Shown: piece by piece, positions 804 through 38,814 of the stretch
How the letters are laid out: each line of letters opens with the position of its first letter
Numbering within the stretch: the first letter of the stretch is position 1
DNA from: Candidatus Schekmanbacteria bacterium
GTDB taxonomy: Bacteria; SZUA-182
Direction: 5' to 3'
Length of the DNA stretch: 41,450 nt
Assembly (NCBI GenBank): GCA_016235675.1
Contig: JACRJN010000171.1
Location: 1 to 41,450 of the forward strand
Translations under genes and position numbers: made by a program
Notes under the pieces: model-generated
Told to the model about the DNA's origin: nothing
Database searches by the model: none
Seen by the model: the letters and a program-made list of their open reading frames with translations, nothing else

Positions 804-1817
804 TTAACCGTGTGTCCGTTTTCCCTTGACCACAACAGTCTTGTTTTCCGCAGATAAGGACGAACTATTTATCATCCCCCAGATTATTCCCGCCCCCAAT
901 GAAGCGGCCCTTAAAGAAAGTAAAAAGGGGGATAACAGCCCCACTAAAGAGTCTCGTTTAACAGCAAACGCTGTAAAAGGTATGGTCAATAAAACAAACA
1001 CTGCTCCGCTAAGAATGCAAGGCAAATTCAAACAGGGCAATATCCTGGCCGGCAACCATAAACCTAAAGAAACATATAAAAACAGAATTTGTAACTTCAA
1101 CGTCTGAGGGGTGTAGGTATCTTTAATCATTTTCCCCGGGAATTTTTTATAAACCACCATCCGCCAATAACCCCTCCAGAATTTAAGCCGCGCATATTTT
1201 CTGATAGAATCCGGGTGGTTTAAATGATAAACCTTTGCCTGAGAATTGAACGCCATTTTATAACCGAGATTTGAAATCCGGTAAGAAAGTTCGGTATCTT
1301 CATTATTGGCTTCTGGAAAAGACGTGTCAAAACCGCCAATCTTCAGGAATAGCTCTTTACGAAACCCGGCGGAGTATGTATCTACCATATCTATCGATTC
1401 AGCTTTTTCCAGCATTTCAAATCGTTCTTCAAACTCGATTTGCGCAAATCTGGCCACAATACTCTTTTGCCGGGTTTTATAGGCGCCTTTAACCGCGACT
1501 ATCTCCGGCTTTTCAAAAGGAATTAGCATTTGGTTAATCCAGTCGGTATCCGGCACGCAGTCCGAATCGGTGAAGAGAATAATCTCCCCCCTGGCTGCAT
1601 TGGCTCCCTTATTCCTGGCCGCCGCCGGCCCCTGGTTTTCCTGGCGAATATATCTGACTGCGTATTCCTGAACGATGGCTTTCGTCCGGTCGCGGGAACC
1701 GTCATCCACTACGATAATTTCGTACAGGTCGGCCGGGTAAGCTTGGGCAACCAGGGCGTTTAAGCATTGGCGGATGGTTTTTTCTGCGTTATAGGCTGGA
1801 ACGATGATTGAAAGCAT
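804..1817 (-). CDS. Family 2 glycosyltransferase with C-terminal membrane segments
   Basis: Transfers a sugar from an activated donor to an acceptor, here probably a lipid-linked glycan at the inner membrane. The N-terminal GT-A fold starts directly at the Met (MLSIIVPAYNAEKTI) and shows DDGS at about residue 38, GPAAARNKGANAARG, the metal-binding DSD (LFTDSDCVPD, about residue 90) and NNEDTELSYR (about residue 167) as acidic catalytic region. About 90 C-terminal residues form two to three hydrophobic segments (LQILFLYVSLGLWLPA and onwards), so it is membrane attached. At 337 aa it is normal for such enzymes. It is the last gene of the locus. A poorly matched ribosome site and a palindromic repeat separate it from the upstream radical SAM gene, so it may be expressed less well. 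The donor sugar cannot be read from sequence. Confidence 0.9.
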   Translation of the reverse strand: MLSIIVPAYNAEKTIRQCLNALVAQAYPADLYEIIVVDDGSRDRTKAIVQEYAVRYIRQENQGPAAARNKGANAARGEIILFTDSDCVPDTDWINQMLIPFEKPEIVAVKGAYKTRQKSIVARFAQIEFEERFEMLEKAESIDMVDTYSAGFRKELFLKIGGFDTSFPEANNEDTELSYRISNLGYKMAFNSQAKVYHLNHPDSIRKYARLKFWRGYWRMVVYKKFPGKMIKDTYTPQTLKLQILFLYVSLGLWLPARILPCLNLPCILSGAVFVLLTIPFTAFAVKRDSLVGLLSPFLLSLRAASLGAGIIWGMINSSSLSAENKTVVVKGKRTHG

Positions 1818-1857
1818 AATGAGTCAAGCGCCTTAGGAACTTAGAAGATATGAATAT

Positions 1858-1939
1858 ACCCCCCACCCTAACCCTCCCCATCAAGGGGGAGGGAACTTAT
1901 CCCCCTCCCCCTTGATGGGGGAGGGACGGGGTGGGGGTG
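1858..1939. repeat. GC-rich palindromic repeat (REP/MITE-like)
   Basis: An almost perfect inverted structure. CCCTCCCCATCAAGGGGGAG on the left is mirrored by CTCCCCCTTGATGGGGGAGG on the right, and the outer ends are ACCCCCCACCC and GGGGTGGGGGT. It occupies most of the gap between the GT2 gene and the radical SAM gene upstream of it. Open frames through it have low-complexity Pro/Arg/Gly content and are not genes. It may act as a transcription attenuator inside the operon. Confidence 0.75.
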
Positions 1940-1983
1940 ATTATCACGATCCAGAGACGGTATCTTTGAAAATTCCATGTCCC

Positions 1984-3441
1984 TTAATGGGTTATGTCCG
2001 ACCCTCGAAGCAGGTATTTTAAAAAGGTTCGGAAGGCTTTGAATGTCCGGCGGATTTCCTGGGGATGGGTAAACATTTGCCCTGTTTTGTAAAACAGGTA
2101 ACTTGGCCTTAAATAAAATTCCCGCCGGGCGTAATCGCAAAATCTGACCAATTCTTCTGACGACAGGGTTTCCGTACGGATAACCGTATTATGCAAACCT
2201 TCGGGGGTAATCCATTTGGAGAAATCCGGGGTTTTGATTAGTCCCCGCTCTTTATACCAGTTATATGCCTCGGTTCCGGGGTAAACCATAACCGGATAAA
2301 ATTGGACTGTATCGGGACGAATCTTTTTGGCCAGTTCAAGGGTTTCGTGCATAGTCTCCCTGGTTTCGCCGGGAAGACCCGCCATAAAGCAGCCATGAAT
2401 CAAAATTCCCGCCCGCTTGGCATTGGACATGAATTTCCCCATTTCCTCCAGCGCCACCTTTTTCTTCATATTATCCAGAATCTTCTGACTTCCGCTTTCA
2501 AATCCCACGCACAGGGAGCGGCAGCCGGCCCGCTGCATTGACTTCATGGTTTCATAGTCCAGACCCACTCTGGCATTGGCTGTCCAGGAAATTTTTATTT
2601 TATTCTGGAGTATAAGTTCGGCCAGTTCGCCGCACCTGTTTTTATTGACGGTCAGGGTGTCGTCTTCAAAAAAGATGGCTTTAGCCTGGGGGAAATTAGC
2701 TACAATATATTTCATTTCGTTGACCACATTTTCTATACTCCTCAGCCGGAAATTTCTCCCCATCAATGTTTGTGGATAGACACAGAAAGTGCAAGGGAAA
2801 ACACAGCCCCGGCTGGTGCTGATAGTTACCATGGGATAGAGGGCATTGGGATTGAAATAATTTTCTATCTTCAGGAACTTTTTGTAAACCTCGCTTACGA
2901 AAGGCACCGCGTCCAAATCTTTTATGAATTGCCGCCTGGGGTTATGAATAATTTTGTCATTGTCTTTGAAGATAATTCCGGGAACATTCCTCAGATCGCC
3001 TTTTTGGGCCAGGGTTTTAGCCAGTTCGGCCAATGTATAATCGTATTCATATTGGGCTATCGCATCCACCCGCTGATCAATATTCAGAGATTCTTCCGGC
3101 AGGGCAGATACATGGGTTCCCACCAGAATAACGAATGATTCCGGCAAGATACCTTTAAGTTTCCCGGCAACCCCTGCGTCATTGTATATACTGGGGGTAC
3201 TGGTATCTAAAACTATAAGGCCGGGATTTAATTTACCGGCCCGCTCAATAATGTAATCCAACTCATACCCATCGGCCGGGGCATCTATCAAATCCACTTC
3301 ATGCCCTTCTTTTTGTAACACCCCGGCGGCAGATGCCAACCACATGGGGAAATAGAGGGTGCCGCTCTTGGTTACAGCCGGGCTTCTCTGCGGACGGGAA
3401 AATTTCTTGAGAAACGGGGGATTGAGTAATAGAACCTTCAT
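1984..3441 (-). CDS. B12-binding-domain radical SAM protein
   Basis: Residues 1-150 look like a cobalamin-binding Rossmann domain (MKVLLLNPPF start, WLASAAGVLQKEGHEVDLID, then GTHVSALPEE). Residues about 200-420 are a radical SAM core with C213, C217 and C220 (RGCVFPCTFC) to bind the SAM-cleaving 4Fe-4S cluster, followed by EDDTLTVNK, GFESGSQ and GLPGETRETM, typical of the B12-radical SAM class. Such enzymes often methylate unactivated carbon; substrates are rarely predictable. The ATG lies directly after the TAA of the DUF362 gene (TAAATG), with AGAAGGA 8 nt upstream, so the two are co-translated. It is more distant from the other three radical SAM proteins here than they are from one another. 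485 aa is full length. Confidence 0.9.
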   Translation of the reverse strand: MKVLLLNPPFLKKFSRPQRSPAVTKSGTLYFPMWLASAAGVLQKEGHEVDLIDAPADGYELDYIIERAGKLNPGLIVLDTSTPSIYNDAGVAGKLKGILPESFVILVGTHVSALPEESLNIDQRVDAIAQYEYDYTLAELAKTLAQKGDLRNVPGIIFKDNDKIIHNPRRQFIKDLDAVPFVSEVYKKFLKIENYFNPNALYPMVTISTSRGCVFPCTFCVYPQTLMGRNFRLRSIENVVNEMKYIVANFPQAKAIFFEDDTLTVNKNRCGELAELILQNKIKISWTANARVGLDYETMKSMQRAGCRSLCVGFESGSQKILDNMKKKVALEEMGKFMSNAKRAGILIHGCFMAGLPGETRETMHETLELAKKIRPDTVQFYPVMVYPGTEAYNWYKERGLIKTPDFSKWITPEGLHNTVIRTETLSSEELVRFCDYARREFYLRPSYLFYKTGQMFTHPQEIRRTFKAFRTFLKYLLRGSDITH

Positions 3442-4683
3442 TTAGCTAATCCTTCTGGTTATTTCTTCGTATTGTTTAAGCTGCTCAGCCATAAAACCGA
3501 GTCGGCCTTTAAATTCAATGGCCTTGCCGGGACAAACCAGAAAGCAATACAGACAGCCAATACAACCCTGGGAACCCTGATCGAATTCGCGGGGTAATTT
3601 TAATCCCATCGGGCAATAATCCGCACATTTGGTACAACCGGCTCGGCATTGATTCCGATTAAATGAAAATCCCTCAAAAATCATTTCTTCTGCGATAAAA
3701 TTGTCTTGCCTCAGCCCTGTTCCAAAGAGGATTTTCCCGCCAAGTCCCGTGGAGCACAGATAATTAAAGAAGGGCGTATTCCGTAGGGCCAGAAAATACC
3801 GTTGCCGCTTGGGGTGGTGGATAAAGGACACCAGGGGGTTTGCCTTGGGCTCCTGAAATTTTCTGGTTACCGCGGACAAATCCAGGGATTTAATAAATTG
3901 ATGATAATCCTGGGTAAGAATACCTTCGTCTTCGGCCAACTTTAGCGTTTTAATCTTTCGGTAGTCGAAATCAGCAATTCTGGCACAGGCCAGGTCTACC
4001 AGATACGGGTCTGTCCCAACAATGATAAGCCCCGTATTAACCGGCGTTCCCCGCGTCGGGCCAAGCCCTTCCATGGCAATCAGGGCATCCACGATGTGAA
4101 GCTGGGGTTTTACCCGCCGGTTGATGTTTAAAATATTCCGGGACAGGTTTTTGTGGGTTTTTTTCTTGTTCTCTTGTCCAACCAGACATCCCATAAGACT
4201 CTTTAAACAGACGCTCATACCCACCTCAAAATGGGTTTTCAGCTTGGGCAGATTGATAAAAAAATCCGCCTCGAAACATTCCTTGGCCACGCTGGCCTTT
4301 ACCCCATCGGCAAAATCTATTTCCACCTTACGGGCATGGTTAAAATCAACTACCTTTACCCCGTAATACTTAGCCAGCCTATCCACCTTGGTTCTGGAAA
4401 TAACGTTTATGTTGTTCCGGTAATAACCGCTGTTAGTGCCTTCACCGATAGTTATATTGTTATACCCCTTGCCTTTGATAAACTCTATCACTGCGGCTAA
4501 CAATCTAAGGTCTGTAGTATTGCCGGTCAGGGCATTCATGTTGCTGTTCAGATTCGGCTTCAGCAATATAGACGCCGTCTTTGAGGAGGGCAACAAATCC
4601 TGATATTTTTCCAGAACAGGATATAATTCTTGGCGGATATCTCGCAAAGAATACGCTCTTATAAAATCTATTCTAAATCCCAT
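3442..4683 (-). CDS. DUF362 protein with C-terminal 2x[4Fe-4S] ferredoxin domain
   Basis: Residues about 35-235 match the DUF362 type (LLKPNLNSN, IGEGTN, INLPKLKTHFEVGMSVCLKS, VGTDPYLVDLACARI). The C-terminus holds two four-Cys motifs, C346-C350-C353-C357-Pro and C374-C377-C380-C384-Pro, expected to bind two [4Fe-4S] clusters. It is therefore probably an electron-transfer protein or Fe-S oxidoreductase; the substrate is unknown. It is directly upstream of, and abuts, a radical SAM gene, which suggests that it feeds electrons to that enzyme (inference). GGAG lies 9 nt before the ATG. A 32-bp segment covering its ribosome site and first codons is duplicated downstream of the previous gene. 413 aa. 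Confidence 0.85.
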   Translation of the reverse strand: MGFRIDFIRAYSLRDIRQELYPVLEKYQDLLPSSKTASILLKPNLNSNMNALTGNTTDLRLLAAVIEFIKGKGYNNITIGEGTNSGYYRNNINVISRTKVDRLAKYYGVKVVDFNHARKVEIDFADGVKASVAKECFEADFFINLPKLKTHFEVGMSVCLKSLMGCLVGQENKKKTHKNLSRNILNINRRVKPQLHIVDALIAMEGLGPTRGTPVNTGLIIVGTDPYLVDLACARIADFDYRKIKTLKLAEDEGILTQDYHQFIKSLDLSAVTRKFQEPKANPLVSFIHHPKRQRYFLALRNTPFFNYLCSTGLGGKILFGTGLRQDNFIAEEMIFEGFSFNRNQCRAGCTKCADYCPMGLKLPREFDQGSQGCIGCLYCFLVCPGKAIEFKGRLGFMAEQLKQYEEITRRIS

Positions 4684-4798
4684 GATATTTCACTCCATCG
4701 CTCGCTTTGCTTGATTGGGATTTGCAGCCCCCTTGGGTTTCGGCCTGAGGACAGGCCGAAACATCGAAATCTATTCTAAATCCCATGATATTTCACTC
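4664..4798. repeat. 32-bp perfect direct repeat flanking a hairpin
   Basis: Positions 4664-4695 and 4767-4798 are identical over 32 bases. The first copy carries the start codon and ribosome site of the DUF362 gene. The second copy carries the stop and last codons of the GT9 gene and a spare ATG with no long frame behind it. The 71-bp segment between them contains a perfect 11-bp hairpin, GTTTCGGCCTG (4737-4747) and CAGGCCGAAAC (4752-4762) with a 4-base loop. Confidence 0.85.
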
Positions 4799-5963
4799 TG
4801 CCATTTGTTTCGTTCAAGACCTCTCTGGCCGCCGCCAAAACATCCTCCACCTGGATAGCCTCCATGCACACATTGAAATTATTTTGCAGACAAACATCTT
4901 CATCGCAACTGAACCTACAGGGAAAACCCTTTTCCACCACCCGGTGAATGTTTCCGTAGGGGCCGGTTTCCCGGCTTTTCGACGGCCCGAAGATAGCCAC
5001 CGTCGGCGTTTTCATAGCGGAGGCGATATGAATGGGGGCGCTGTCATTGCAGATAAACAAATCGAGCCGGCTTATCAGACCGGAGATAATCCTGAGATTG
5101 GCTTTACCAGCCGAATTAACAGCCTGTTTATGATTTTCCATTTTCTGGATTATATCAGCAATAAGCCCCGTTTCCTGCGGGGAGCCGGTAAAGATTATCT
5201 TCGCCCCGTATTCGGATATAAGCCGATCCGCCGTTTCTGCAAACTTAGCCGCCGCCCAGCACTTCAACCCCTTCCTGCCTCCCGGATGGATTCCCACCAG
5301 TAAATCGGCCGGCAAAATTCCCACCTCACCGAGTAATGCCTTCACCGCAACCTTTTCTTCCGCAGTCAGGGATATTCCCCATTCCACTTTACCTATGTTG
5401 CCGCCTAAATGTTTCACCATGTCCAAATGATAATCAACCTTGTGCTTAATCTCCCGATAAGGGACTACATGGGTAAGCAAATAGCCCCCGCCGCCGACAT
5501 TGTAACTCACCCTGTACCGTCCCCTACACAAATAGGTCAACAGAAGGATGTCCCGGATATCCGCCCGGCTTTCGATTACCATGTCGTAACGTTTGGAACG
5601 AAGAATCTTTAAAAATTTTAAATAATCCCCGATCCCCTCTTTAGAGGCTTTGGGATAAAACCAAAACGCATCATAGGCCAGGACGTCATCCACATAGGGA
5701 TTGTTAAGAAAAATGTCCCTGGCGGCAAAGCTGGTTAAAAAAGTTATTCTGGCATCGGGATATAACTCTCTAAGCGGTTTCAGAACAGGGAGCGTCATCA
5801 CCACATCACCGATATACGCCGTCCTGATAACCAGTATCTCTTTAATGCCGGTGAGAGGAGTGTTTTTTTTGAAAATATTTACGGGCAACCATAGGAGATA
5901 CCCCAAAAGATCGGCCATCATAGTGGCGATTTTCTTCTTTTTGTTTATGATCTTGTAATGCAA
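4776..5963 (-). CDS. Family 9 glycosyltransferase (heptosyltransferase-like)
   Basis: A GT-B enzyme of the lipopolysaccharide heptosyltransferase type. It shows ILVIRTAYIGDVVMTLPVL at about residue 44, GIHPGGRKGLKCWAAAKFAE in the middle and the donor-site signature LFICNDSAPIHIASAMKTPTVAIFGPS near the C-terminus. It probably adds heptose or a related sugar to a lipid-linked glycan on the cytoplasmic face of the inner membrane. The start is a TTG with GGAG 7 nt upstream; an ATG at 5921 is the alternative and would remove a Lys-rich leader of 14 residues. Its last residues (KYHGI) are encoded by the second copy of a 32-bp duplication, so the original C-terminus may have been replaced. It follows the acyltransferase gene closely. 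Confidence 0.88.
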   Translation of the reverse strand: MHYKIINKKKKIATMMADLLGYLLWLPVNIFKKNTPLTGIKEILVIRTAYIGDVVMTLPVLKPLRELYPDARITFLTSFAARDIFLNNPYVDDVLAYDAFWFYPKASKEGIGDYLKFLKILRSKRYDMVIESRADIRDILLLTYLCRGRYRVSYNVGGGGYLLTHVVPYREIKHKVDYHLDMVKHLGGNIGKVEWGISLTAEEKVAVKALLGEVGILPADLLVGIHPGGRKGLKCWAAAKFAETADRLISEYGAKIIFTGSPQETGLIADIIQKMENHKQAVNSAGKANLRIISGLISRLDLFICNDSAPIHIASAMKTPTVAIFGPSKSRETGPYGNIHRVVEKGFPCRFSCDEDVCLQNNFNVCMEAIQVEDVLAAAREVLNETNGRVKYHGI

Positions 5964-5987
5964 ATCCTTACTCCGTCAACGTTCCTA

Positions 5988-6941
5988 TTAATCTGTAAAT
6001 AATGGGATATTCAGCCCTCTTTCTGCCTCTTTTCGGGTGCAGTACAAAATCATGCCAAAATGACACGGATAATTCAGAAGATATTTCTCAAAAATTCTGG
6101 CAAACTTAATGGTATTCATCTTTAGAGTTTCTTCCTTATTGTCAACCAACTCCATCTCAAACGGCGGCTCTAAGATCAGGGTATGCTTGTCATTTTTATC
6201 CCTTACCATAAACGTAGGGATTATGGCCGCCCCGGTTTTCAAAGCCATATTAAAGGGGCCGGGGGAAAACTGGGCGGTACGGTCAAGAAACTGCACCGGA
6301 AACCGCTTGTTGCCGGTTCTGCCGTCAAACGCCAACACTATAATCTCGTTTTTGTTAAGCGCCTTGACCACAGAACCCAGGTACTTGTCGGTCTGAATAA
6401 AACTAATCGGCAGTCTGTCGGTCTCTCTCTTTCTGATTTCGAACAGCTTGCGGTATATGCGTCTGTTATTTTCCAGCAAGGGTTTACCGGCGACCTGAAT
6501 AATATTATACCCCTTGTATCCCAATACCGGCAGGGGCAAGAGGAACGAGCCGAAATGCGCCGTCAGCAAAATAACCCCCTTCCCTTTTTGGAGAGATTCT
6601 TGTAGATGCTCCATCCCCTGTATGGAAACCAATTTATCCAGCTTATCTTTGGTAAAACCACCGAAAATCAGGTTTTCGACTTGCCTTTTCAGGTATATTT
6701 CTAAACTCTTTCTTACGATGGTATCAACTTCTTTTTTGTTGAACCTGGCTCCATACAGCATTTCTATTTCTTCCGCCAAGGTGTTTCTTCTCTTTGTGTC
6801 AGCCAAAAAAAACAATTTAGCGGCAACATCCGCAAAAAAGTAGCTCATGCTCAACGGCAAACAATCCAAAACCGGACGCACCACAACCCAAACAAACCAA
6901 ATACCGATGTCTATTATTAAGGTTGAAATTTTACCTTTCAC
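5988..6941 (-). CDS. LpxL/HtrB-type lipid acyltransferase family protein
   Basis: Resembles lauroyl/myristoyl acyltransferases that transfer fatty acyl chains to lipid A at the inner membrane. There is an N-terminal hydrophobic segment (about 8-28) and the family core LTAHFGSFLLPLPVLGYKGY at about residue 128, followed by AFDGRTGNKRFPVQFLDRTAQFSPGPFNMALKTGAAIIPTF. In the usual HX4(D/E) catalytic motif the acidic residue is Leu here (H-F-G-S-F-L), so activity by the standard His-Asp/Glu dyad is doubtful. The GTG start overlaps the TGA of the upstream ligase-like gene (GTGA), with AGGAAC in front, which indicates translational coupling. A paralogue is at 16881-17852. 317 aa is normal length. 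Confidence 0.85.
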   Translation of the reverse strand: MKGKISTLIIDIGIWFVWVVVRPVLDCLPLSMSYFFADVAAKLFFLADTKRRNTLAEEIEMLYGARFNKKEVDTIVRKSLEIYLKRQVENLIFGGFTKDKLDKLVSIQGMEHLQESLQKGKGVILLTAHFGSFLLPLPVLGYKGYNIIQVAGKPLLENNRRIYRKLFEIRKRETDRLPISFIQTDKYLGSVVKALNKNEIIVLAFDGRTGNKRFPVQFLDRTAQFSPGPFNMALKTGAAIIPTFMVRDKNDKHTLILEPPFEMELVDNKEETLKMNTIKFARIFEKYLLNYPCHFGMILYCTRKEAERGLNIPLFTD

Positions 6942-8413
6942 TTTTTTAGTTCCTGCTTAACCAAATTTAAAGTAGCTACGGCTGTCCCGAGGTAAAGCCA
7001 GACTATTGACCTGTTATAATCGAAATCCACCAGGCCGTGAAACGCCAGGGCTAAAAACCCACCCCAAATAGCCACGCCCATTACCTGAAGGTAGGAAGCC
7101 TGAAATTTCTTTATGCCGGAAAAACATTTATACAGGTAAACCACAATATAAAGCAAACACAATACCCCAATAAGTCCGAAATCGAACAGAAGGGAAAAAT
7201 ATATGCTATGGGCATGAGGCGAGGTAGTGTAGTATGTTAAATTTCCGATCCCAAGCCCTTGAATTATAGAATGTCCATACAGCTTAAAGGCTTTTTCCCA
7301 AAGTTTCTTTCTTCCAGGCTTACTTTTAGACAGCCCCGGTTCAATAACGCCTCCACTCTCCACTACCTTACCGGCAATGTGCAGCAACCTCGTCCCGAAG
7401 TCTTTTTTCAGGAACACGTTCCAAACAATATGCCTGGAGGAAATATATACGACTAGCGACCCCGCAAAGAAACATATAAATAGCGGTAAAAACACCTTGC
7501 GCAGTTTATTTAAACCGGAGAACAGATAGAAAGACATGATAAATAACCCGCCAAAACCCGCCCGGCTCTCGGTTTGAAAAACTATAAATGTGGAAAGCGA
7601 CATAATGCCTATCAGCAAACCCTTCCTGAACCGGCTTTTTTCCACCATGAACAACCCAATAGCCATAGCAAACACCAGGTTCATAAGCAATGCCGTCTCA
7701 TGGTGATCTTGTATGCCGGAAGCCGGACGGGGCCAACCCGAAGGCTGAAACCAGCCTGCGGGTATACTGATTCCAAAGGTGGAGGCTGAGAATATTTTTT
7801 TGGCAACCAGTATAGGGTCGAAAAAATACAATGTCACCGCCAGAACCCCTTGAATCAATCCAGATATGAGCCAGCACCATATTGTTTTTCTGTGAGTGGC
7901 TTCATCCTTGACAACAGAATTCAGCAATATAAACAGCATGATATTCATAGCCAGCGTGAAAAGCTGAAACAGGCTGTGTTTTAAGTTTCCACTCCAGGTA
8001 AGGCTTAGCAAAGAGTACAGTAAGAGGATTACCAGGGGGATTATTAATGGGTTTTTAAAAGATGGCAGCCTGATTTTTGCGCACCTGGTTAATAAAAGGC
8101 CACAAAAGGATAGTATAATGACTGGGACAAATACCGGTATCAGGTCAATCGGTTTGTTTCCGACTATAAAATTCCATTTTCCATGAACCGTCAGATGGAC
8201 ACAGGCCGTGGTAACCGGAATCAGGAATATCAACAGGTAAGCCCCCCACTCCGGCTTAACCAAAAATATACTAAGAATCAACAAGATAAGGTAAGCGGGA
8301 AATGTGATATACCACGGCACAAAAACGCTTAAAAAAGCGATTAAGGCCAGGCATAAAATGGCAAAATATCGCCCTATATGTCTGTTGGAATCTTGATTAA
8401 AATGGCTTGGCAT
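6938..8413 (-). CDS. O-antigen ligase / polymerase family membrane protein
   Basis: A 491-aa polytopic membrane protein with roughly 10-12 hydrophobic segments starting at about residue 15. A large extracytoplasmic loop near residues 330-390 ends in GHSIIQGLGIGNLTYYTTSPHAHSIYFSLLFDFG, the pattern of the Wzy_C region (RAGFGG before it, then the PHAHS segment). Such proteins either ligate undecaprenyl-linked glycan to a lipid core (WaaL) or polymerise repeat units (Wzy); sequence does not decide between them. It follows the methyltransferase/hydrolase fusion by 18 nt and overlaps the acyltransferase by 4 nt. No convincing ribosome site is visible before the ATG. Confidence 0.87.
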   Translation of the reverse strand: MPSHFNQDSNRHIGRYFAILCLALIAFLSVFVPWYITFPAYLILLILSIFLVKPEWGAYLLIFLIPVTTACVHLTVHGKWNFIVGNKPIDLIPVFVPVIILSFCGLLLTRCAKIRLPSFKNPLIIPLVILLLYSLLSLTWSGNLKHSLFQLFTLAMNIMLFILLNSVVKDEATHRKTIWCWLISGLIQGVLAVTLYFFDPILVAKKIFSASTFGISIPAGWFQPSGWPRPASGIQDHHETALLMNLVFAMAIGLFMVEKSRFRKGLLIGIMSLSTFIVFQTESRAGFGGLFIMSFYLFSGLNKLRKVFLPLFICFFAGSLVVYISSRHIVWNVFLKKDFGTRLLHIAGKVVESGGVIEPGLSKSKPGRKKLWEKAFKLYGHSIIQGLGIGNLTYYTTSPHAHSIYFSLLFDFGLIGVLCLLYIVVYLYKCFSGIKKFQASYLQVMGVAIWGGFLALAFHGLVDFDYNRSIVWLYLGTAVATLNLVKQELKK

Positions 8414-8431
8414 TGTGTTTGACGAAGGTAA

Positions 8432-10858: not shown

Positions 10859-10886
10859 TAATGCTCTCCATTTATCTTTTCGCAAT

Positions 10887-12164: not shown

Positions 12165-12221
12165 AATGCTAATCCTCCCCATTTTGCATCATAATTTACA
12201 GCCTGTTTTTCTTATATTGCC

Positions 12222-13616: not shown

Positions 13617-13637
13617 GATTCCTCCATAATGAACGGT

Positions 13638-15344: not shown

Positions 15345-15408
15345 TGTAAACCTTCCCTTCTTTTATAAATAGACGCAAAAAAATCCGCCACTCCGAAAAA
15401 CACGACCA

Positions 15409-16875: not shown

Positions 16876-16880
16876 ATTCG

Positions 16881-19230: not shown

Positions 19231-19263
19231 AAATATAATTTAATCAAGAGGATGTTCTGTTTG

Positions 19264-21315: not shown

Positions 21316-21406
21316 ATACCCATCTCAAATTTATTGACATAACCTAAGCCGGACAAGCCGGAAGCGAACAAGGTTGTCGGTTGTCGGTTGGATGAAGAGA
21401 ACTTTA

Positions 21407-21617
21407 TTAACCTGAGTTCGGGATAAGAAAAATCGTAGTCCCAGCCCTTTAGGGCTGATTTTCATGGCAAAGCCATGCAATAACGACTCACAAGTGGTTA
21501 AATCTTCTCAAATTAATTCACACCTTTCGGACTGAACATGCCTTTTATCTCAGCCTAAGGCTGAAAATGCGTGGCTAAAGCCACGGGACTACATTTATTA
21601 TCCTGAACTCAGGTTAA
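21407..21617. mobile_element. MITE-like element with 20-bp terminal inverted repeats
   Basis: The ends TTAACCTGAGTTCGGGATAA (21407-21426) and TTATCCTGAACTCAGGTTAA (21598-21617) are inverted copies with one mismatch. Inside are four short palindromes (CAGCCCTTTAGGGCTG, CATGGCAAAGCCATG, CAGCCTAAGGCTG, CGTGGCTAAAGCCACG). It has no coding capacity. Its right end encodes the last five residues and stop codon of the dehydrogenase gene. The same end sequence recurs alone at 41313-41330. It fills most of the gap between the dehydrogenase and the Wzc-like gene. Confidence 0.8.
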
Positions 21618-22764
21618 CTAATATCTTCCCATCTTTCCTGTCTACAGATTTTCTTAATGCCTCTATCCCCTTTGCGAACGGGTATTTTAAGGTAACCATT
21701 TTGCTCAAATCCAGCTTTCGGGAGGCAATTAGTTTGATGATTTTCGGGAAGATGCCGTAACCGGAATGCCCCCTGGCGCCAATTATTTTGTTGGCCCCGG
21801 AAACTAACGTGTCCAGATACATGGATGTTTTGGTGGCCGCCCTTCCCAGATAGATAATCTTCCCCTGGCTGGACAAGGCTTTCTCCATTTCAGGGATGGT
21901 CTGCGGGGCTGCCCCGGCGGCTTCCACTAAAATATCGGCTCCCTCCCCCTGGGTAAGTTCCATTACCTTATCCCCGGAGCCGGTTCCCATTTTCTTTATA
22001 TTGAAAGCATAATCCGCACCCATTTTCCTGGCTATTTCCACCCTTTCATCTATTACGTCAAAGGCAATAATCCGACTGGCCCCGGCGATTCCGGCCAAAG
22101 CCACGGCCCCGAGTCCAATTGGCCCCACCCCGTATACTACGACCACCCCTCCGGGTTTAAACCCGCCGCCGGCAATAAAAATGCCGTTGTAGGCGCAGCC
22201 CACAGGTTCAATCAGAGCGCCCAGGGCAAATGCTTCATCCTCCGCATATACCTCCATCAAATCATTAATCTTCCAGCAATACCGTTCGTTTACAGCTACA
22301 TATTCGGCAAAGGCTCCGTCCCTGCTCAATCCCAGCAGATTGACATTTTTGCACTGATTTGGATCGCCGCTTCTGCAGGACGAACACGTACCGCACCACA
22401 TTACGCTTTCTACTGCTACCCGGTCGCCTGTTTTCAGGCCGGTTACCCGACCCCCGGTTTTTCCCACCACTCCCGAAAATTCATGCCCTAGAATGCACGG
22501 TAGCCTGGTCAGCCCTGAAAAGATTATATATCCGTCCTTGCCGGTTTCATATAAATGCGTGTCCGACCCGCATACGCCGCAGATTTTTACCCGGATCAGA
22601 ACCTCATCTTCTTTTATGTCCGGCGTCGGCGCATTTCTTATCTCAAAACTCGGATTACGCCATACCTGGCTGCCTACCAAAGCCATCCGGTATGTTTTTT
22701 CCTTATCGGTTAAGGCGTAGTTTGGCCTGGGCATCCACTCGGCTTCCGCAATAAGCGCTCTCAT
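21598..22764 (-). CDS. Zinc-dependent medium-chain alcohol dehydrogenase
   Basis: An MDR-family NAD(P)-dependent dehydrogenase. Catalytic zinc region KICGVCGSDTHLYETG and GHEFSGVVG; structural zinc Cys in CGTCSSCRSGDPNQC; nucleotide fold GVGPIGLGAVALAGIAG. Oxidises or reduces an alcohol/aldehyde or polyol; the substrate is undetermined, though the type is close to threonine/sorbitol dehydrogenases. The ATG at 22764 overlaps the ligase TGA (ATGA) with AGGAG 6 nt upstream, so it is preferred to the ATG at 22770. The final residues NLSSG and stop lie inside the terminal repeat of a MITE-like element, so the native C-terminus may have been trimmed. 388 aa. Confidence 0.9.
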   Translation of the reverse strand: MRALIAEAEWMPRPNYALTDKEKTYRMALVGSQVWRNPSFEIRNAPTPDIKEDEVLIRVKICGVCGSDTHLYETGKDGYIIFSGLTRLPCILGHEFSGVVGKTGGRVTGLKTGDRVAVESVMWCGTCSSCRSGDPNQCKNVNLLGLSRDGAFAEYVAVNERYCWKINDLMEVYAEDEAFALGALIEPVGCAYNGIFIAGGGFKPGGVVVVYGVGPIGLGAVALAGIAGASRIIAFDVIDERVEIARKMGADYAFNIKKMGTGSGDKVMELTQGEGADILVEAAGAAPQTIPEMEKALSSQGKIIYLGRAATKTSMYLDTLVSGANKIIGARGHSGYGIFPKIIKLIASRKLDLSKMVTLKYPFAKGIEALRKSVDRKDGKILVNLSSG

Positions 22765-24260
22765 GCACACTCCTGCTGTAACGCGTTTTTATTGATTTTC
22801 CCGCTCCCGATTTTAGGCAGGGATTCTCTTATTTCCACTATTTTAGGTAATTTATAATGGGGCAACTGCTCTTTGCAAAATCTTAAAATATCTTTTTCTG
22901 CTAATATTTTCCCGTTTTTGGGAACAATAAACGCCTTGGGAACTTCACCCCTCAATCTGTCTTTAACCGAAATGACCGCCGCTTCTTTTACATCTGCATG
23001 TCCCATCAAGGCCAGTTCGATTTCCAGGGGATAGACTTTCAACCCGGCAACCTTCATCATGCCGGTTTTCCTCTCCACAAAATAGAAATTTCCGGCTTCA
23101 TCCCTTCTCCCCAAATCTTCGCTAAAATACCAACCGTTATTAAAATTTGCAGAGTCGTCCGGCTGGGCGGCATAATAGCCTTTGACAACCGCCGGGCTTT
23201 TGAATATCATCTCGCCGGTTTCCCCGGTGGGGACTTCCGCTCCATGCTCATCAACTATTTTGCCCGCATAATATGGGCAGAGCCTTCCTGCTGAACCGGT
23301 CGCCATCTGTTCGCCGGGACGGTTGGCCAAAGCGATGCCGGTGGTTTCCGTGCTGCCCCAGACCGGAATAATGGGCACGCCCAGTTTCTGCCTGAATCGC
23401 TCGATAAGCTCTGGCCGGGTGAACATGCCGCCGCTTTCGGGAATCCGCAGGGAGCTTAAATCATAAGCTTTATGTTCCAGCGCCTCCAACAGGTTTTCAT
23501 ACATCGGCGCCAGCCCCATCACGCAACTGACCCTGTGGCTGGCTACCGCTTCCGCCAGCGACTTCGGGTATATGTTGTCCACAAAAACCATGGTTCCACC
23601 CAGATAAACCGGCCTGGCAAATATCTCATGGGGATGGGCGAAAGGAGCAAACATGCACAGATGAATATCTTCAGGGGTTAGTCCCAGGGCTTCCACTGCG
23701 CCAATAGTGTTATAATATATATTCGAATGGCTGGTTATCGCGCCTTTGGGATTTCCGGTCGAGCCGGAGGTATAGTTCAGATAAACCAAGTCTTCCTCAT
23801 TAACCTCCAGGCCGGGATTGTTGGGCTTTCCGTTCTTTAGCGCTTCATCCCATGCTATATAGTTCCCGCTGTCGTTACCGACCGTTATAATTTTTATGGA
23901 TACGTTTTCAGGAATAGATTTACCGACAATGTCTAAAAAGGAGGCGTGTACAATAAGACATTTGGGGGTTATGACCTCAAAAATTCCCCGGATTTTAGCC
24001 TCAAAAAGCTCAAAATTAATTGGCACGGCTACCCCCTGCGCCTTGGCTGCCGCCATGAAGCTTATAACCAGTTCAGGGATTCTCGGCAACATCAGCCCGA
24101 CCCGGTCTCCTTTTTTTATCCCCCCCTCTATCAGAAAAGAAGCCAATCTGTTTACGGTTTCGTTGAATTTGCTATAGGTTATTTGAGTATTATGGAAAAT
24201 AACAGCCGCTTTATCGGGAACCCTTCCGGCATTATTCTCTAACATTTCCACCAGCGTCAT
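22761..24260 (-). CDS. AMP-forming acyl-CoA ligase (ANL superfamily)
   Basis: Activates a carboxylic acid through an acyl-AMP, normally to the CoA thioester. Core motifs: YTSGSTGNPKGAI (ATP loop, about residue 164), WGSTETTGIA (about 290), YFSEDLGRRDEAGNFYFVERKTGMMKVAGLKVYP (hinge) and PKIGSGKINKNAL with the catalytic Lys at the C-terminus. 499 aa is full length. AAGGAT lies about 9 nt before the ATG. It overlaps the dehydrogenase by 4 nt, so they act in the same process. Within a glycan locus the likely job is preparing an acyl group or an aminoacyl-like substituent for attachment (inference). No carrier protein gene is visible nearby. Confidence 0.9.
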   Translation of the reverse strand: MTLVEMLENNAGRVPDKAAVIFHNTQITYSKFNETVNRLASFLIEGGIKKGDRVGLMLPRIPELVISFMAAAKAQGVAVPINFELFEAKIRGIFEVITPKCLIVHASFLDIVGKSIPENVSIKIITVGNDSGNYIAWDEALKNGKPNNPGLEVNEEDLVYLNYTSGSTGNPKGAITSHSNIYYNTIGAVEALGLTPEDIHLCMFAPFAHPHEIFARPVYLGGTMVFVDNIYPKSLAEAVASHRVSCVMGLAPMYENLLEALEHKAYDLSSLRIPESGGMFTRPELIERFRQKLGVPIIPVWGSTETTGIALANRPGEQMATGSAGRLCPYYAGKIVDEHGAEVPTGETGEMIFKSPAVVKGYYAAQPDDSANFNNGWYFSEDLGRRDEAGNFYFVERKTGMMKVAGLKVYPLEIELALMGHADVKEAAVISVKDRLRGEVPKAFIVPKNGKILAEKDILRFCKEQLPHYKLPKIVEIRESLPKIGSGKINKNALQQECA

Positions 24261-24281
24261 TCCAATTTTATCCTTTCCGGT

Positions 24282-25613
24282 TTATTTTGTCGGAACAGCC
24301 ACCTTCCCCGAAGTTTTGCCGCCTTCCATCTGTTGGCCTATATAAATAGCGCTTTCCAGCGTCAGCAGCGGGGAAATTATAGTTGAAAGATGGGTAAAAA
24401 ATCTATCCACATCGGCAATAAAGGTTCTCGGCACAAAAACAATATCCCCCCGTTTAAGCGGAATATCAGACAACGGAGTGTTTTCTTCAAATGCTTCGTC
24501 TATGTTAAAGGTTATCAACTCACGACTGGGATTGTTCATCCCGCCTCGTACCAATAAAATACTATCCTCTCTTGCATTGAGGGTCATGCCCCCCGCCTGG
24601 GAAATGGCTTCCAGCACATCCGTGTGGCCGTCTGCCAAATATACGCCGGGAGAGGATACTTCTCCCAGCACAAAAATTTTCTGGCCGCTGAAATTAACCA
24701 CTTCGATACTGACCTGGGGGTCGGCAATTCTTTTCAGATTGGTGGCCTTTTTTATATCTACGGCCACCTGGGGATCGACTATAATTTTCGGCAACTCCGA
24801 ACTAACCAGATTGACCTCTACCTGGGGATTTACAATATGCTTCAAAAGCCCCGCCGAAATAGCTTCCCTGACCTGTTTAAGATTCTTTCCCTGAATCTCT
24901 ATTTCTCCCACCAGCGGGTAAAATATAATACCCTCCGGGGGGATGATTAATTTCCGGTTAAGCTTTTCATTGTCATAGACGGTAATAGAAATCTCATCTC
25001 CAGGCATCAGGTAATATTTCTTATATTTAGATAATTCAGTTACAATAACCTGTCTTAGCTCTTTGCAACTTTTCCCTTCAGCCTTTATCTCTCCCGCCAT
25101 TGGATAAAAAATATAGCCGTCGGGAGGAATTACAAACTCCCGGTTAAATTTTTCTTGCTGAGATACAGTAATTGATATTTCGTCTCCGGGCAAAAGTCTC
25201 TGGTCATTGTGCTCCGATAAGGCTTGGACAATTATTTCCCTCAGTTGCTCCAAGGATTTTCCGGTAACATTTATTTTCCCCGCGGCCGGATAATAAACTA
25301 TTCCGTCGGGAGGAATTTTTACCTTCCGCGACAGTTCATCATGTTGAAATACGGTAATGTTTATCTCGTCCCCGGGCGAAAGCACAAACTCCCGGATCTT
25401 TACTTCGCCGATTTCTTCCGGAACGTTCTGCGGATTGGCCGACAGGGAGGCTTTTTGGGTGCCGGCACATCCTCCCATGCAAAGCGAAAAGCTCAGGATA
25501 AAAAAACCGGTTTTTAATCCAAAGGCCGGATAAAAACAGGGATTCCCGCAAATTTTCTCCGTAAATACCGCAAATATTTTCCTGATAGCTTTCTCAATCC
25601 TGACCAGACTCAT
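24282..25613 (-). CDS. Wza-like polysaccharide export lipoprotein with three tandem export domains
   Basis: Outer-membrane/periplasmic export protein of the Wza type. A hydrophobic stretch (33-47) ends at C49 in MGGCAG, a likely lipidation site; the 30-residue leader before it is long. Residues 77-137, 139-199 and 201-260 are three copies of the polysaccharide export module (each SPGDE/LPGDE/MPGDE, IPPDG or IPPEG, YYP or FYP, GKS/GKN). A second triplication follows, VNPQVEV, VDPQVAV and ADPQVSI (261-305), and an SLBB-like domain (IFVLGEVSSPGVYLADGHTDVLEAISQAGG, about 313-342). Typical relatives carry one export module. GGAG lies 6 nt before the ATG. It lies 21 nt upstream of the ligase gene. 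Confidence 0.9.
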   Translation of the reverse strand: MSLVRIEKAIRKIFAVFTEKICGNPCFYPAFGLKTGFFILSFSLCMGGCAGTQKASLSANPQNVPEEIGEVKIREFVLSPGDEINITVFQHDELSRKVKIPPDGIVYYPAAGKINVTGKSLEQLREIIVQALSEHNDQRLLPGDEISITVSQQEKFNREFVIPPDGYIFYPMAGEIKAEGKSCKELRQVIVTELSKYKKYYLMPGDEISITVYDNEKLNRKLIIPPEGIIFYPLVGEIEIQGKNLKQVREAISAGLLKHIVNPQVEVNLVSSELPKIIVDPQVAVDIKKATNLKRIADPQVSIEVVNFSGQKIFVLGEVSSPGVYLADGHTDVLEAISQAGGMTLNAREDSILLVRGGMNNPSRELITFNIDEAFEENTPLSDIPLKRGDIVFVPRTFIADVDRFFTHLSTIISPLLTLESAIYIGQQMEGGKTSGKVAVPTK

Positions 25614-25645
25614 TTTTTGCTCCGGAAACAGATTTCGTAGTGCGG

Positions 25646-25792
25646 GGGATTGTCCCCATAAGCGCTAACTTAAACGTAGCGCAGGGCTTTAGCCCTGCAA
25701 GCAGACACAACGTTTGTGTTCAATCCATGGCAGACCTAAAGGTCTGCGCTACATTATAAATACCTTAAGTTAACGCTTATGGGATTGTCCCC
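25646..25792. mobile_element. MITE family 1, copy 1, with 12-bp flanking direct repeats
   Basis: Core 25658-25780 starts ATAAGCGCTAACTTAA and ends TTAAGTTAACGCTTAT. It contains CAGGGCTTTAGCCCTG and CAGACCTAAAGGTCTG, each a palindrome, next to GTAGCG and CGCTAC. It is flanked by identical direct repeats GGGATTGTCCCC at 25646-25657 and 25781-25792, which fit a target-site duplication. The target itself is palindromic. Copies 2 and 3 are at 34571-34715 and 40285-40433, all in the same orientation. Confidence 0.85.
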
Positions 25793-25832
25793 CGTACGGA
25801 CAGGGCATAAAGCCCTGCGCTATACGTTCGTA

Positions 25833-27590
25833 TTAATACGCTCCGCCCTTTTTGAAAACAACCGAAATCGTTTTAAATAGTATTTTTAAATCCAGCCACA
25901 GGCTCTGATTTTTGACATAGTTTATATCATACCTTATCCAATCGTGGAAAGGACTTTCGCTTCTTCCCTGAATCTGCCATAAACCGGTTATACCCGGTTT
26001 TACCTTGAGCCGTATATTCCTCCAGGACGGGCTGAATTTCATCTCATCCATTATTAACGGCCTTGGCCCGACCAGGCTCATTTCCCCTTTAATAACATTG
26101 ATTAGCTGAGGAAGCTCATCCAGGCTGGTTTCCCGCAGTATCTTGCCAAAACGGGTGATCCTGGGATCGTCTATCATCTTAAACATAGGGCCGTCTGTAT
26201 TTTTTTGGACCGCAAGTTCAGCCTGTTTCTTTTCGGCATCGGCAAACATGGTGCGAAACTTGTACATATTAAATAGCTTGCCGTCTTTTCCGCATCTTTT
26301 CTGGATGAAAAAAACAGGCCCCGCCAAATCTGCCTTGATTAACAGCGCAATTAAAAACAGCAGCGGCAACAAGATTAAAAACAGGATCAGCGATATAAAT
26401 ATATCCAGAGTCCTTTTTATGAAGTTAAAGCACCACTTGTTAACCTGCTGGGATAAATTCTTTCCTCCAACAGCCGTTACCCCATAGTGAAGGGGCGTTA
26501 AATTAATATCGCCTACTCGCAAATCACCGACTAATATTAAATTGCTTATTCGTTCATCCCCCGAAATCTTTAAACCCTCATCTACAACACAATATTCGCT
26601 CTTGGCCCTTTTTCCTAAAGAAACGCCCCGCCACAAGATGCTTTCCCGGAGAATAACGTTTTCCGAAATCCTGCATTCATTGCCTATAACAGCAGGCCCG
26701 ATTATCTGAGCGCCTCCGGCTATATTGCAATTACTTCCTATAACAATCGGCCCCATTAAATATACGGCAGGCGAAATAACGGTGTTTTTGCCGACCCATA
26801 CGTTTTCCGTCACCTCTTCCTTGTCCTTAAAATAATCCACCTTACCATTTATCCCGAATAAATCTCTATGTATTCCAAAATAATCTTCGATATTATTTAT
26901 ACTTCTGGAATAGCCGTTTAATTCATAGCCGTAAACCGGTAAGGACGCCTTCTGCATTAACGGTATTAATTGTTCCTTAATATCGAAATATTTCTGGGGG
27001 TCAATAAATTCAAACACCGCCGGGGTGAACAGATAAATGCCGGAGGACACCCAGGGAGACCTCCGGTCTTTAGAATGATGAATGACATGGATTTCCTTCA
27101 GCAATTTCTCTGGCGATAGCGCAATAGATTCTTCTGACTCAAAGCCTTTATTGTTTTTGCGTTTTACACATACGGTGGCTACAGCTTTTTTGCTGTGCTG
27201 AAAATCAAACAAACCTTTAAAGTTAATGTTTCCTATATAAAGACTGCTGTTTGCTACCAGGAAAGGTTGATTTTCCAACAAAGGCATTATGTCTGTCAAA
27301 ATACCGGCGGTTCCTCTGGGTCTTTTCTCTTTATAGAGGTGAAGCTTAATCCGCCCATTATTTTTCTCTTTTAGATATTCTACATATGAGAAATCAACGT
27401 TATCCGAGGAAGCGATAATCAACTCTTCTACGCCGTTTTCCACCAAACTATTTATATTATGTTCAATAAGAGGTTCATTAAACAACGGAAACAAAAACGT
27501 CGGGTACCGTTTGGTTAATGGCGACAAATGACCTCTCCCTCCCGCGAGAAAGACCGCCTTATTGATTTTCATCTTGACGTCTATCCCCAT
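25833..27590 (-). CDS. Phosphoglycosyl transferase fused to degenerate nucleotidyltransferase and beta-helix
   Basis: Three domains in 585 aa. Residues 7-235 look like a sugar-1-phosphate nucleotidyltransferase but read AGGRGHLSPLT where GTRLxPLT is expected and YPTFLFPL where PKPLxP is expected, so the key Arg and Lys are absent. Residues about 255-345 are hexapeptide-type beta-helix (IGSNCNIAGGAQIIGPAVIG). Residues about 385-585 are a polyprenyl-phosphate sugar phosphotransferase: a hydrophobic span (LDIFISLILFLILLPLLFLIALLI), FNMYKFRTM, the Asp-Glu pair in ETSLDELPQ, and GEMSLVGPRP. The last domain should start glycan synthesis by placing a sugar phosphate on undecaprenyl phosphate. An alternative start is ATG 27572. 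It lies 77 nt downstream of the oxidoreductase gene. Confidence 0.87.
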   Translation of the reverse strand: MGIDVKMKINKAVFLAGGRGHLSPLTKRYPTFLFPLFNEPLIEHNINSLVENGVEELIIASSDNVDFSYVEYLKEKNNGRIKLHLYKEKRPRGTAGILTDIMPLLENQPFLVANSSLYIGNINFKGLFDFQHSKKAVATVCVKRKNNKGFESEESIALSPEKLLKEIHVIHHSKDRRSPWVSSGIYLFTPAVFEFIDPQKYFDIKEQLIPLMQKASLPVYGYELNGYSRSINNIEDYFGIHRDLFGINGKVDYFKDKEEVTENVWVGKNTVISPAVYLMGPIVIGSNCNIAGGAQIIGPAVIGNECRISENVILRESILWRGVSLGKRAKSEYCVVDEGLKISGDERISNLILVGDLRVGDINLTPLHYGVTAVGGKNLSQQVNKWCFNFIKRTLDIFISLILFLILLPLLFLIALLIKADLAGPVFFIQKRCGKDGKLFNMYKFRTMFADAEKKQAELAVQKNTDGPMFKMIDDPRITRFGKILRETSLDELPQLINVIKGEMSLVGPRPLIMDEMKFSPSWRNIRLKVKPGITGLWQIQGRSESPFHDWIRYDINYVKNQSLWLDLKILFKTISVVFKKGGAY

Positions 27591-29551: not shown

Positions 29552-29700
29552 CACTGATTTTCTCTGTTTTCAAGCGGCTTTGGCATATAGTTTTGTATCT
29601 GCATTTTTGGCCTGATCTGTTGATTTGTCTTAGTCTTTGACGACTTCAATCTTGACAAAACTTGAGCAAAATATCTCGCAAGTACTGTAATTATCGCTAG

Positions 29701-38724: not shown

Positions 38725-38743
38725 ATTGGATGACCTTTTTTTA

Positions 38744-38814
38744 AAAGGCTGAAGGCTGAATTATGAAGGCTGAATTAACTTTTTTCATCCTTCCGCCTTC
38801 ATCCTTCCGCCTTT
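38744..38814. repeat. Hairpin built of GAAGGCTGA-like tandem repeats
   Basis: Left arm 38744-38774 (AAAGGCTGAAGGCTGAATTA and onward) pairs with right arm 38784-38814 (TTCATCCTTCCGCCTTCATC and onward) with a few mismatches. The right arm overlaps the cbiH stop codon by two bases. It lies between cbiH and cbiJ. Confidence 0.65.

Follow-up and report, generated by a model that had tools for sequence, protein, structure and literature searches.

The window analysed here is a stretch of 41,450 nucleotides that forms one whole contig of a 2.98 Mb metagenome-assembled genome (MAG) of a Candidatus Schekmanbacteria bacterium. Positions 804-27590 are occupied by 18 genes, all encoded on the minus strand (Table 1). 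The genes named in the first-pass annotation, which had described an envelope-glycan locus, were all found in their place on this one strand, and we have little doubt that the locus is real and forms a functional unit. RNA families and tRNAs were absent from the window. An aldehyde:ferredoxin oxidoreductase gene (27668-29554), which the annotation did not list, lies 77 bp upstream of the locus; no other examined locus has it, and it was dropped as a conserved member.

Table 1. Genes of the envelope-glycan locus, with their positions in the window and supporting profile matches.
Gene	Predicted product	Position	Strand	Profile evidence
GT2	GT2 glycosyltransferase, core cassette	804..1817	-	PF00535 3.7e-40
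J	HpnJ-like B12-binding radical SAM protein, core cassette	1984..3441	-	TIGR03471 407.6 bits, cut-off 577.6
DUF362	DUF362 (LarA-fold) domain + 2[4Fe-4S] ferredoxin-type domain fusion, core cassette	3442..4683	-	PF04015 1.8e-46, Fer4
GT9	GT9 (heptosyltransferase-like) glycosyltransferase, core cassette	4776..5963	-	PF01075 2.5e-28
LpxL2	Second atypical LpxL-like acyltransferase (HFGSFL)	5988..6941	-	PF03279 5.2e-31
Wzy_C	Wzy_C-type polymerase/ligase	6938..8413	-	PF04932 3.2e-11
	Methyltransferase domain (~residues 1-285) + glycosidase-like domain fusion, 817 aa	8432..10885	-	PF08241 5e-20
rS_C	B12-binding radical SAM protein	10887..12182	-	PF02310, PF04055; 39% to rS_A
rS_A	B12-binding radical SAM protein	12222..13616	-	PF02310, PF04055
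PDE	Soluble type I phosphodiesterase/nucleotide-pyrophosphatase family, 568 aa	13638..15344	-	PF01663 9.6e-41
Wzx	Wzx-type flippase	15409..16875	-	PF01943 8.9e-25
LpxL1	Atypical LpxL/PatA-fold acyltransferase (HFGPAQ; HX4E acid lost)	16881..17852	-	PF03279
rS_B	B12-binding radical SAM protein	17842..19230	-	PF02310, PF04055
Wzc-like	Chain-length/copolymerase protein	19264..21315	-	PF02706, PF13807, PF13614; TIGR01007 142 bits vs 108
IolM	IolM-type Zn-dependent dehydrogenase, 10 bp overlap with ACS	21598..22770	-	NF041097
ACS	AMP-binding acyl ligase	22761..24260	-	PF00501 1.9e-81
Wza-like	Outer-membrane polysaccharide export protein, Poly_export unit x3	24282..25613	-	PF02563 (three stretches), SLBB
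PGT	Nucleotidyltransferase + left-handed beta-helix + polyprenyl-phosphate hexose-1-phosphate transferase fusion, 585 aa	25833..27590	-	PF02397 4e-70, PF00483 4e-18

The locus unites a PGT, Wzx, Wzy_C, a PCP (Wzc-like) and an OPX (Wza-like) protein, the set of a Wzx/Wzy-dependent OPX system. The fused PGT has a 53% identical orthologue of equal length in a related locus (L021), and the Wza-like protein shows PGDE repeats at residues 80, 142 and 204. In the Wzc-like protein the Walker A lysine is replaced (GNST) and a C-terminal tyrosine cluster is absent. The export, chain-length and ligase families of XrtA/PEP-CTERM systems stayed below their cut-offs (TIGR03027, 161.8 of 180 bits; TIGR03007, 122.8 of 278.9; TIGR03098, 236.7 of 592), as did GT9 with TIGR02201 (156 bits, cut-off 170). 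Only two glycosyltransferase genes accompany the PGT, and hence the repeat unit may need genes located elsewhere.

ACS has 62–64% identical orthologues in L021 and in another genome (G050), and it adjoins the dehydrogenase gene in five loci. The dehydrogenase matches the scyllo-inosose 3-dehydrogenase IolM equivalog NF041097 (522.5 bits, cut-off 450), a family match from which its substrate here is only predicted. ACS was found in 11 loci and IolM in six, while many related loci are without them. The phosphodiesterase and the methyltransferase-glycosidase fusion also belong to the locus, and had been missed at first. The former occurs in one to three copies in ten loci. The C-terminal part of the latter is 40% identical to a separate 553-aa open reading frame in locus L015, and its G050 counterpart carries PF01229 (GH39) at the corresponding place. 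The methyltransferase profile drifted onto this glycosidase part, and the 'MT' labels from that search were left unused.

The three sister radical SAM proteins combine PF02310 and PF04055 with the CxxxCxxC motif of the B12-binding radical SAM superfamily. The other two show 44% and 39% identity to the first, and GISxRNI and KRGC are invariant columns in all three, as had been noted earlier. Orthologues of rS_A (52–60%) occur in magnetotactic and other Nitrospirota MAGs, and rS_B has a 58% orthologue in locus L023. The close trio is special to the source genome, however; other loci have one or two genes of the sister type and as many as three that are more distant.

The family scores of these proteins bear on a reading in which the locus makes a specialised lipid, ladderane-like or otherwise branched, such that the radical SAM enzymes act on acyl chains and the sugars are a mere head group. 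The sister enzymes reach 229–235 bits with TIGR04072 ('lipid biosynthesis B12-binding/radical SAM protein'), and a radical SAM gene usually adjoins an acyltransferase gene, which fits acyl-chain modification. Yet, the TIGR04072 cut-off (360) is missed, BzaD scores higher (242–284 bits, although also below its cut-off of 450), and genes for an acyl carrier protein, a ketosynthase or a desaturase are absent from the window. We consider this reading improbable.

A further alternative takes the family names at face value. LpxL1 and LpxL2 (PF03279) would then carry out late acylation, GT9 would act as a core heptosyltransferase and the Wzy_C protein would ligate O-antigen, so that the locus would make or decorate lipopolysaccharide. 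LpxC was found in all 11 carriers tested, which indicates that these carriers make lipid A. The structure model of LpxL1 (pLDDT 90) matches PatA and LpxM (Z 23.7–24.3) and thus has the LpxL/PatA fold. However, the acid of the HX4D/E motif of lipid A late acyltransferases is absent from 31 of the 32 proteins of the locus subfamily, which keep the His and a DG. The other PF03279 proteins examined, from ten of the 11 tested carriers, all retain HX4E (14/14) and form one clade (100). The source genome itself encodes two such canonical proteins on other contigs, with higher scores (231 and 165 bits), and LpxL1 and LpxL2 were therefore rejected as its lipid A enzymes. The Wza-like and Wzc-like genes, moreover, point to OPX export. 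Judged from their sequences, the locus acyltransferases make up a subfamily of their own, apart from the lipid A enzymes, and they very probably do not serve late acylation of lipid A; a lipopolysaccharide variant is unlikely, although its O-antigen part may apply. Without the HX4E acid, the locus acyltransferases could be inactive or perform other chemistry. The HFGxxxLP motif given for them in the first-pass annotation fits both proteins in the window, but only HFG is kept across the family.

The fourth, more distant radical SAM protein, J, directly abuts the DUF362-ferredoxin gene, so that the proposed pairing of the two holds. J orthologues are 53–76% identical, and the radical SAM cysteines 213/217/220 are invariant in 22 sequences. 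J matches the HpnJ model over its full length, and the HpnI/HpnJ pair also combines a glycosyltransferase with a radical SAM protein (PMC12583986). This could suggest a glycosylated hopanoid or other polycyclic lipid, with J as HpnJ and GT2 as the HpnI equivalent forming a cyclitol ether on a hopanoid. The match of 407 bits is under the cut-off, though, whereas true HpnJ proteins in other genomes reach 766–775 bits with the same model. In the tree, J falls in a group of 40 sequences (100/99) that excludes H_L140 and H_L141, a clade separate from HpnJ. Squalene-hopene cyclase was not found in the source genome (90% complete), and a strong match (>400 bits) occurred in only 3 of 27 genomes. On these grounds the hopanoid reading is largely refuted and retains hardly any probability; by sequence, J is not HpnJ. 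Its nearest relatives, HpnJ by family model and AprD4 among solved structures, both modify sugars. Tentatively, J may remodel a sugar as well. Methylation of sp3 carbons, put forward at first for the radical SAM enzymes, is thus one option but not the sole one.

The partner of J is more than the ferredoxin initially recognised. It does have a ferredoxin-type domain, with eight invariant cysteines at 346–384, but its DUF362 domain adopts the fold of lactate racemase, LarA (Z 15.9 over ~209 residues, 3.2 Å; next unrelated match 5.9). Its orthologues are 46–68% identical. H151, K161 and H177 are in register with nickel-pincer residues of the malate racemase Mar2, where K161 and H177 align to K181 and H197 in a weak alignment (E 0.22). 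The cofactor residues of LarA are R75, K184 and H200 in LarA numbering (PMC7583248); by manual reading of the alignment, DUF362 has Asp/His at the Arg site. LarC is present in 25 of 26 carriers, a count among carriers alone. In 14 control genomes it accompanied three of the four holders of DUF362, and no LarC match was obtained in B. ihuae, which has DUF362. Co-occurrence with LarC was not taken as proof of nickel-pincer use.

One possibility is that the DUF362-ferredoxin protein transfers hydride as a nickel-pincer enzyme of the LarA type, using one catalytic His, and passes electrons via its own iron-sulfur clusters to J, so that GT9-DUF362-J-GT2 would couple nickel-pincer redox and radical chemistry on a glycan. 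We regard this as a speculative and rather unlikely proposal. If it were true, the Lys/His signature would identify members of the DUF362 family more widely as nickel-pincer proteins. Our literature search found no paper combining DUF362 with radical SAM, and the chemistry of this core pair appears to be without prior description.

Relatives of the locus occur in Nitrospirota, Desulfobacterota and other bacteria. Carriers made up 14 of 295 sampled Nitrospirota genomes and 9 of 395 from the phylum of a Desulfobacteraceae MAG. Two modules are conserved across phyla. The first, seen in 18 of 24 loci, consists of a radical SAM gene and an adjoining LpxL-like gene (in the window, rS_B overlaps LpxL1 by 11 bp). 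Scattering of these genes in related genomes, which the first-pass annotation had named as evidence against its reading, was not found. The second is the core cassette GT9-DUF362-J-GT2. Here DUF362 adjoins J in 24 of 29 loci (two of the remaining five are cut by contig ends), J adjoins GT2 in 20 loci and GT9 adjoins DUF362 in 18. Adjacent module genes often overlap by 4 bp or are less than 20 bp apart. The loci were collected with baits and several are closely related, so that these counts are not independent. The idea of one co-occurring set holds for the radical SAM/LpxL-like linkage but not for the whole, as at least five members of one lineage have the cassette without radical SAM/LpxL-like neighbours. 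Its tie to the rest of the locus may hence be loose. A search for further conserved neighbours of these stand-alone cassettes found none. An Fdh-alpha-like molybdopterin oxidoreductase (58–68% identical) immediately follows GT2 in four loci and is encoded close to the cassette in 11, but was rejected as an obligatory member, because the source genome lacks an orthologue.

Glycan islands are mosaic, and the differing composition of the loci would be consistent with an ordinary exopolysaccharide island that gathered unrelated modification genes by chance. Wzx and Wzy_C are strongly divergent between loci (mostly 22–36% identity; profile-based family labels for Wzx, Wzy and glycosyltransferase genes are loose below ~30%). 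Against this, both neighbourhoods recur across phyla with overlapping genes, and J and DUF362 are well conserved among orthologues. Recurrence of these gene pairs in other genomes is more than chance, which makes a fortuitous assembly very unlikely.

We lean towards a pathway separate from lipid A that makes a lipid-linked envelope glycan, and the product is probably acylated. In the proposed sequence, PGT would put a sugar phosphate on the polyprenyl carrier, and GT9 and GT2 would extend the lipid-linked sugar. Radical chemistry by J would rearrange or deoxygenate one sugar, with the DUF362-ferredoxin protein as dedicated redox partner. The BzaD-related B12 radical SAM enzymes could add further changes, most simply C-methyl groups. 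ACS would provide activated acyl groups, which the LpxL/PatA-fold enzymes would move onto sugar hydroxyls. Once Wzx has flipped the unit, the Wzy_C protein would polymerise or ligate it, with export by the Wzc-like and Wza-like proteins. This would yield an acylated and radical-modified cell-surface polysaccharide or glycolipid. The earlier proposal, in which radical enzymes modify a glycolipid or lipid-linked glycan, is thus partly supported and remains the best fit, with its chemistry and product predicted. No described pathway with this gene set was found in our literature search, in agreement with the original impression.

If this is correct, an envelope glycan pathway of a class without prior description would operate in bacteria that are uncultured or have received little study, magnetotactic Nitrospirota and Desulfobacteraceae among them. 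The changes that its radical enzymes install on sugars or acyl chains could be useful as biomarkers, and the locus could yield new radical SAM chemistry. In addition, a group of proteins annotated as 'lipid A acyltransferase' is set apart from lipid A. The LarA fold makes DUF362, a family long without a name, testable, and the compact four-gene cassette allows the functions of the DUF362-ferredoxin and HpnJ-like proteins to be tested together.

The locus shares its PGT, flippase, Wzy_C protein, copolymerase and Wza-like exporter, as well as a glycosidase-like gene and acyl ligase, with Wzx/Wzy-dependent OPX exopolysaccharide and capsule loci, including those of XrtA/PEP-CTERM type, whose family cut-offs it does not reach. 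What sets it apart from them is the presence, within the locus, of at least two B12 radical SAM proteins, LpxL-like proteins of an atypical subfamily and a DUF362-ferredoxin protein. BzaD and TIGR04072 proteins have the same domain architecture as the sister enzymes and give their best family scores, but the sister enzymes score well below both cut-offs and have an envelope gene context. Like LpxL and LpxM of lipid A and PatA of mycobacterial PIM, the locus acyltransferases have a common fold and catalytic His; in contrast, they carry DG instead of DQ, have mostly lost the acid, and form a separate clade linked to radical SAM genes. PatA transfers an acyl group onto a mannoside glycolipid. The HpnI/HpnK/HpnJ system of hopanoid cyclitol ether formation likewise pairs a glycosyltransferase with a radical SAM protein related to J over its full length, but J belongs to another clade, its carrier is without squalene-hopene cyclase, and a DUF362 partner stands where that system has a deacetylase. 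AprD4, an aminoglycoside radical SAM dehydratase, is by sequence the closest solved structure to J and the three sister enzymes, although the similarity is distant and the locus has a glycan-export context rather than an antibiotic cluster. Finally, the LarA/Mar2 nickel-pincer racemases share their fold with the DUF362 domain, and its His/Lys/His are in register with their catalytic His, cofactor Lys and Ni-ligand His. In DUF362, however, the second catalytic His is apparently Asn, the cofactor-site Arg is apparently not kept, and the domain is fused to a ferredoxin.

The window spans one whole contig, G000:C135, of the 2.98-Mb host assembly (190 contigs, 90% complete). At 804-27590 it carries 18 long minus-strand ORFs, with overlaps or gaps mostly below 100 bp. 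The first-pass annotation had described a Wzx/Wzy-style set with three sister B12-binding radical SAM genes and two LpxL-like genes. Pfam and NCBIfam searches recovered every gene that it had listed, and the sisters are indeed similar (44% and 39% identity to the first, with the GIS.RNI and KRGC...C..C stretches invariant in a three-protein alignment), which confirms the observation. Missing from that description were a PF01663 phosphodiesterase-family protein (PDE), a methyltransferase-glycosidase fusion and an aldehyde:ferredoxin oxidoreductase; the last was absent from the other loci examined. The methyltransferase/glycosidase-like ORF may be a genuine fusion or reflect a lost stop codon. 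In L015, a locus from a relative, the glycosidase part is an ORF of its own, whereas it shares one ORF with the methyltransferase in the window. The cobalamin-ring genes on the same contig point to a host that is probably able to make the corrinoid needed by the radical SAM proteins.

Features of the window and of related loci
Feature	Position	Remarks
J, HpnJ-like B12-binding radical SAM protein	1984-3441	
DUF362-ferredoxin protein (DUF362)	3442-4683	
Methyltransferase + glycosidase-like domains	8432-10885	single 817-aa ORF
Wzc-like protein	19264-21315	GNST where Walker A has GKST; without tyrosine-rich tail
Wza-like protein, 443 aa	24282-25613	three Poly_export units in tandem
Aldehyde:ferredoxin oxidoreductase	27668-29554	same strand as the phosphoglycosyl transferase (PGT), 77 bp upstream of it
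CbiJ/CobK, a tetrapyrrole methylase, CbiG (cobalamin ring)	37972-40272	same contig as the locus
Fdh-alpha-like molybdopterin oxidoreductase	L016:9615-11717	also L064, L109, L112

Used as query against 84,980 species genomes, the alignment of the three sister proteins yielded 22 loci. The best matches (49-60%) came from Nitrospirota MAGs, including Candidatus Magnetomicrobium and Magnetominusculus, followed by Desulfobacterota and others, and in most of the better matches an LpxL-like gene adjoins the radical SAM gene. Most other loci have one gene of the sister type, accompanied by as many as three B12 radical SAM genes that are more distantly related. In the family tree, the first sister (rS_A) groups with proteins of Magnetomicrobium and other Nitrospirota, and the second (rS_B) with those of two other genomes (G147 and G646). 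Because each is placed with different relatives, the tree identifies them as old lineages assembled together, not recent duplicates.

Flanking DNA of the relatives was annotated with profiles made from the window genes. In the resulting counts, which carry a bait effect and include some closely related loci, DUF362 and J are adjacent on one strand in 24/29 loci (in the other five, a contig end cuts two, one ORF intervenes in two, and one has no J nearby), J adjoins GT2 in 20 and GT9 adjoins DUF362 in 18, and a radical SAM gene lies beside an LpxL-like gene in 18/24. Bigger loci also carry Wzx, Wzy_C, Wzc-like, Wza-like, PDE and acyl ligase (ACS) genes, and sometimes an IolM-type dehydrogenase. 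Whole-genome searches gave clear DUF362 orthologues in 9/395 genomes of the phylum of the Desulfobacteraceae carrier and in 14/295 of that of the Thermodesulfovibrionales carrier.

The GT9-DUF362-J-GT2 cassette is separable from the rest of the locus, because five related Nitrospirota genomes (G604, G625, G641, G676, G692) have it with no radical SAM or LpxL-like genes within the 20-39 kb examined around it. Their J proteins form one supported tree group, so this stand-alone state may reflect a single evolutionary event. Near the cassette, 11 loci have an Fdh-alpha-like molybdopterin oxidoreductase (58-68% identity across phyla), which in four of them comes immediately after GT2; the host genome has no orthologue. 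A GDSL-lipase-like gene (415-431 aa) follows the radical SAM/LpxL-like pair in five Nitrospirota loci (L016-L020), which suggests an acyl-removing or acyl-transferring partner.

LpxC is encoded in all 11 carriers tested (genomes with the locus or its core genes), and each has additional PF03279 proteins outside the locus. Control proteins, 14 non-locus PF03279 members from ten genomes, all have HX4E and form a single clade (100). The LpxL-like proteins of the loci, ACYLTRANSFERASES, sit outside this clade; the His and the DG pair occur in 32/32, the acid at H+5 in 1/32. That the acid matters in LpxM is indicated by the title of a solved entry, 'catalytic residue substitution (E127A)'. The LpxL1 model (pLDDT 90) matches PatA and LpxM (Z ~24). 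Taken with the lost acid and the separate placement, this match gives the enzyme a glycolipid acyltransferase fold and sets it apart from standard lipid A acyltransferases.

Loss of the Walker A lysine and absence of the tyrosine tail make tyrosine kinase activity of the Wzc-like protein improbable; it is expected to serve as a copolymerase and not as a kinase. Relatives of the Wza-like protein in other loci are far shorter (253-275 aa) than that of the window.

With gene content, order, conservation, subfamily status and folds established here, a pathway can be proposed. PGT would prime a polyprenyl carrier, on which GT9 and GT2 would extend the glycan; J together with DUF362 would remodel one sugar, and the sister enzymes would introduce further changes. 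Acylation would be the task of ACS together with the LpxL/PatA-fold enzymes, and the Wzx, Wzy_C, Wzc-like and Wza-like proteins would flip, assemble and export the glycan. Conceivably, PDE trims or transfers a phosphodiester. The literature searched, with most subscription journals outside its coverage, contained no description of this gene set, and we file the locus among OPX glycan loci, as one that carries a conserved apparatus for radical chemistry and acylation.

HpnJ is the enzyme that makes the cyclitol ether of hopanoids (PMC12583986). J resembles it in that the HpnJ model covers J from end to end, yet the score of 407 bits is short of the cut-off (577.6). Genuine HpnJ proteins in other genomes reach 766-775 bits and form a separate clade. 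No squalene-hopene cyclase was found in the host genome, and only 3/27 genomes searched had a strong one. The solved structure closest to J is AprD4.

The DUF362 domain model (pLDDT 85) has the LarA fold (Z 15.9; first unrelated row 5.9), and both domains belong to one Pfam clan (PMC11770544). The only solved chain found by sequence was malate racemase Mar2, at an E of 0.22 that is weak alone; in this same weak alignment H151, K161 and H177 of DUF362 face Mar2 171, 181 and 197. The Mar2 cofactor residues include K181 and H197 (PMC7583248), and by our own residue count position 171 corresponds to LarA H174. In our own alignment, other DUF362 proteins of these genomes, encoded far from the locus (L046-L056), keep the H151 and K161 equivalents, which line up with the catalytic His and the cofactor Lys of LarA, with a His near the third position, and hence the question of a nickel-pincer cofactor spans the whole family. 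LarC occurs in 25/26 carriers, a weak figure with no background rate, and one control genome has DUF362 and lacks LarC. Possibly, one cassette couples nickel-pincer and radical chemistry. Homologues without the catalytic residues could run another hydride reaction (PMC7583248). DUF362 has the LarA fold, and in the weak Mar2 alignment its His/Lys/His match the Mar2 positions, yet the second catalytic His and the cofactor Arg seem, in our own alignment, to be replaced by Asn/Ser and Asp/His, respectively.
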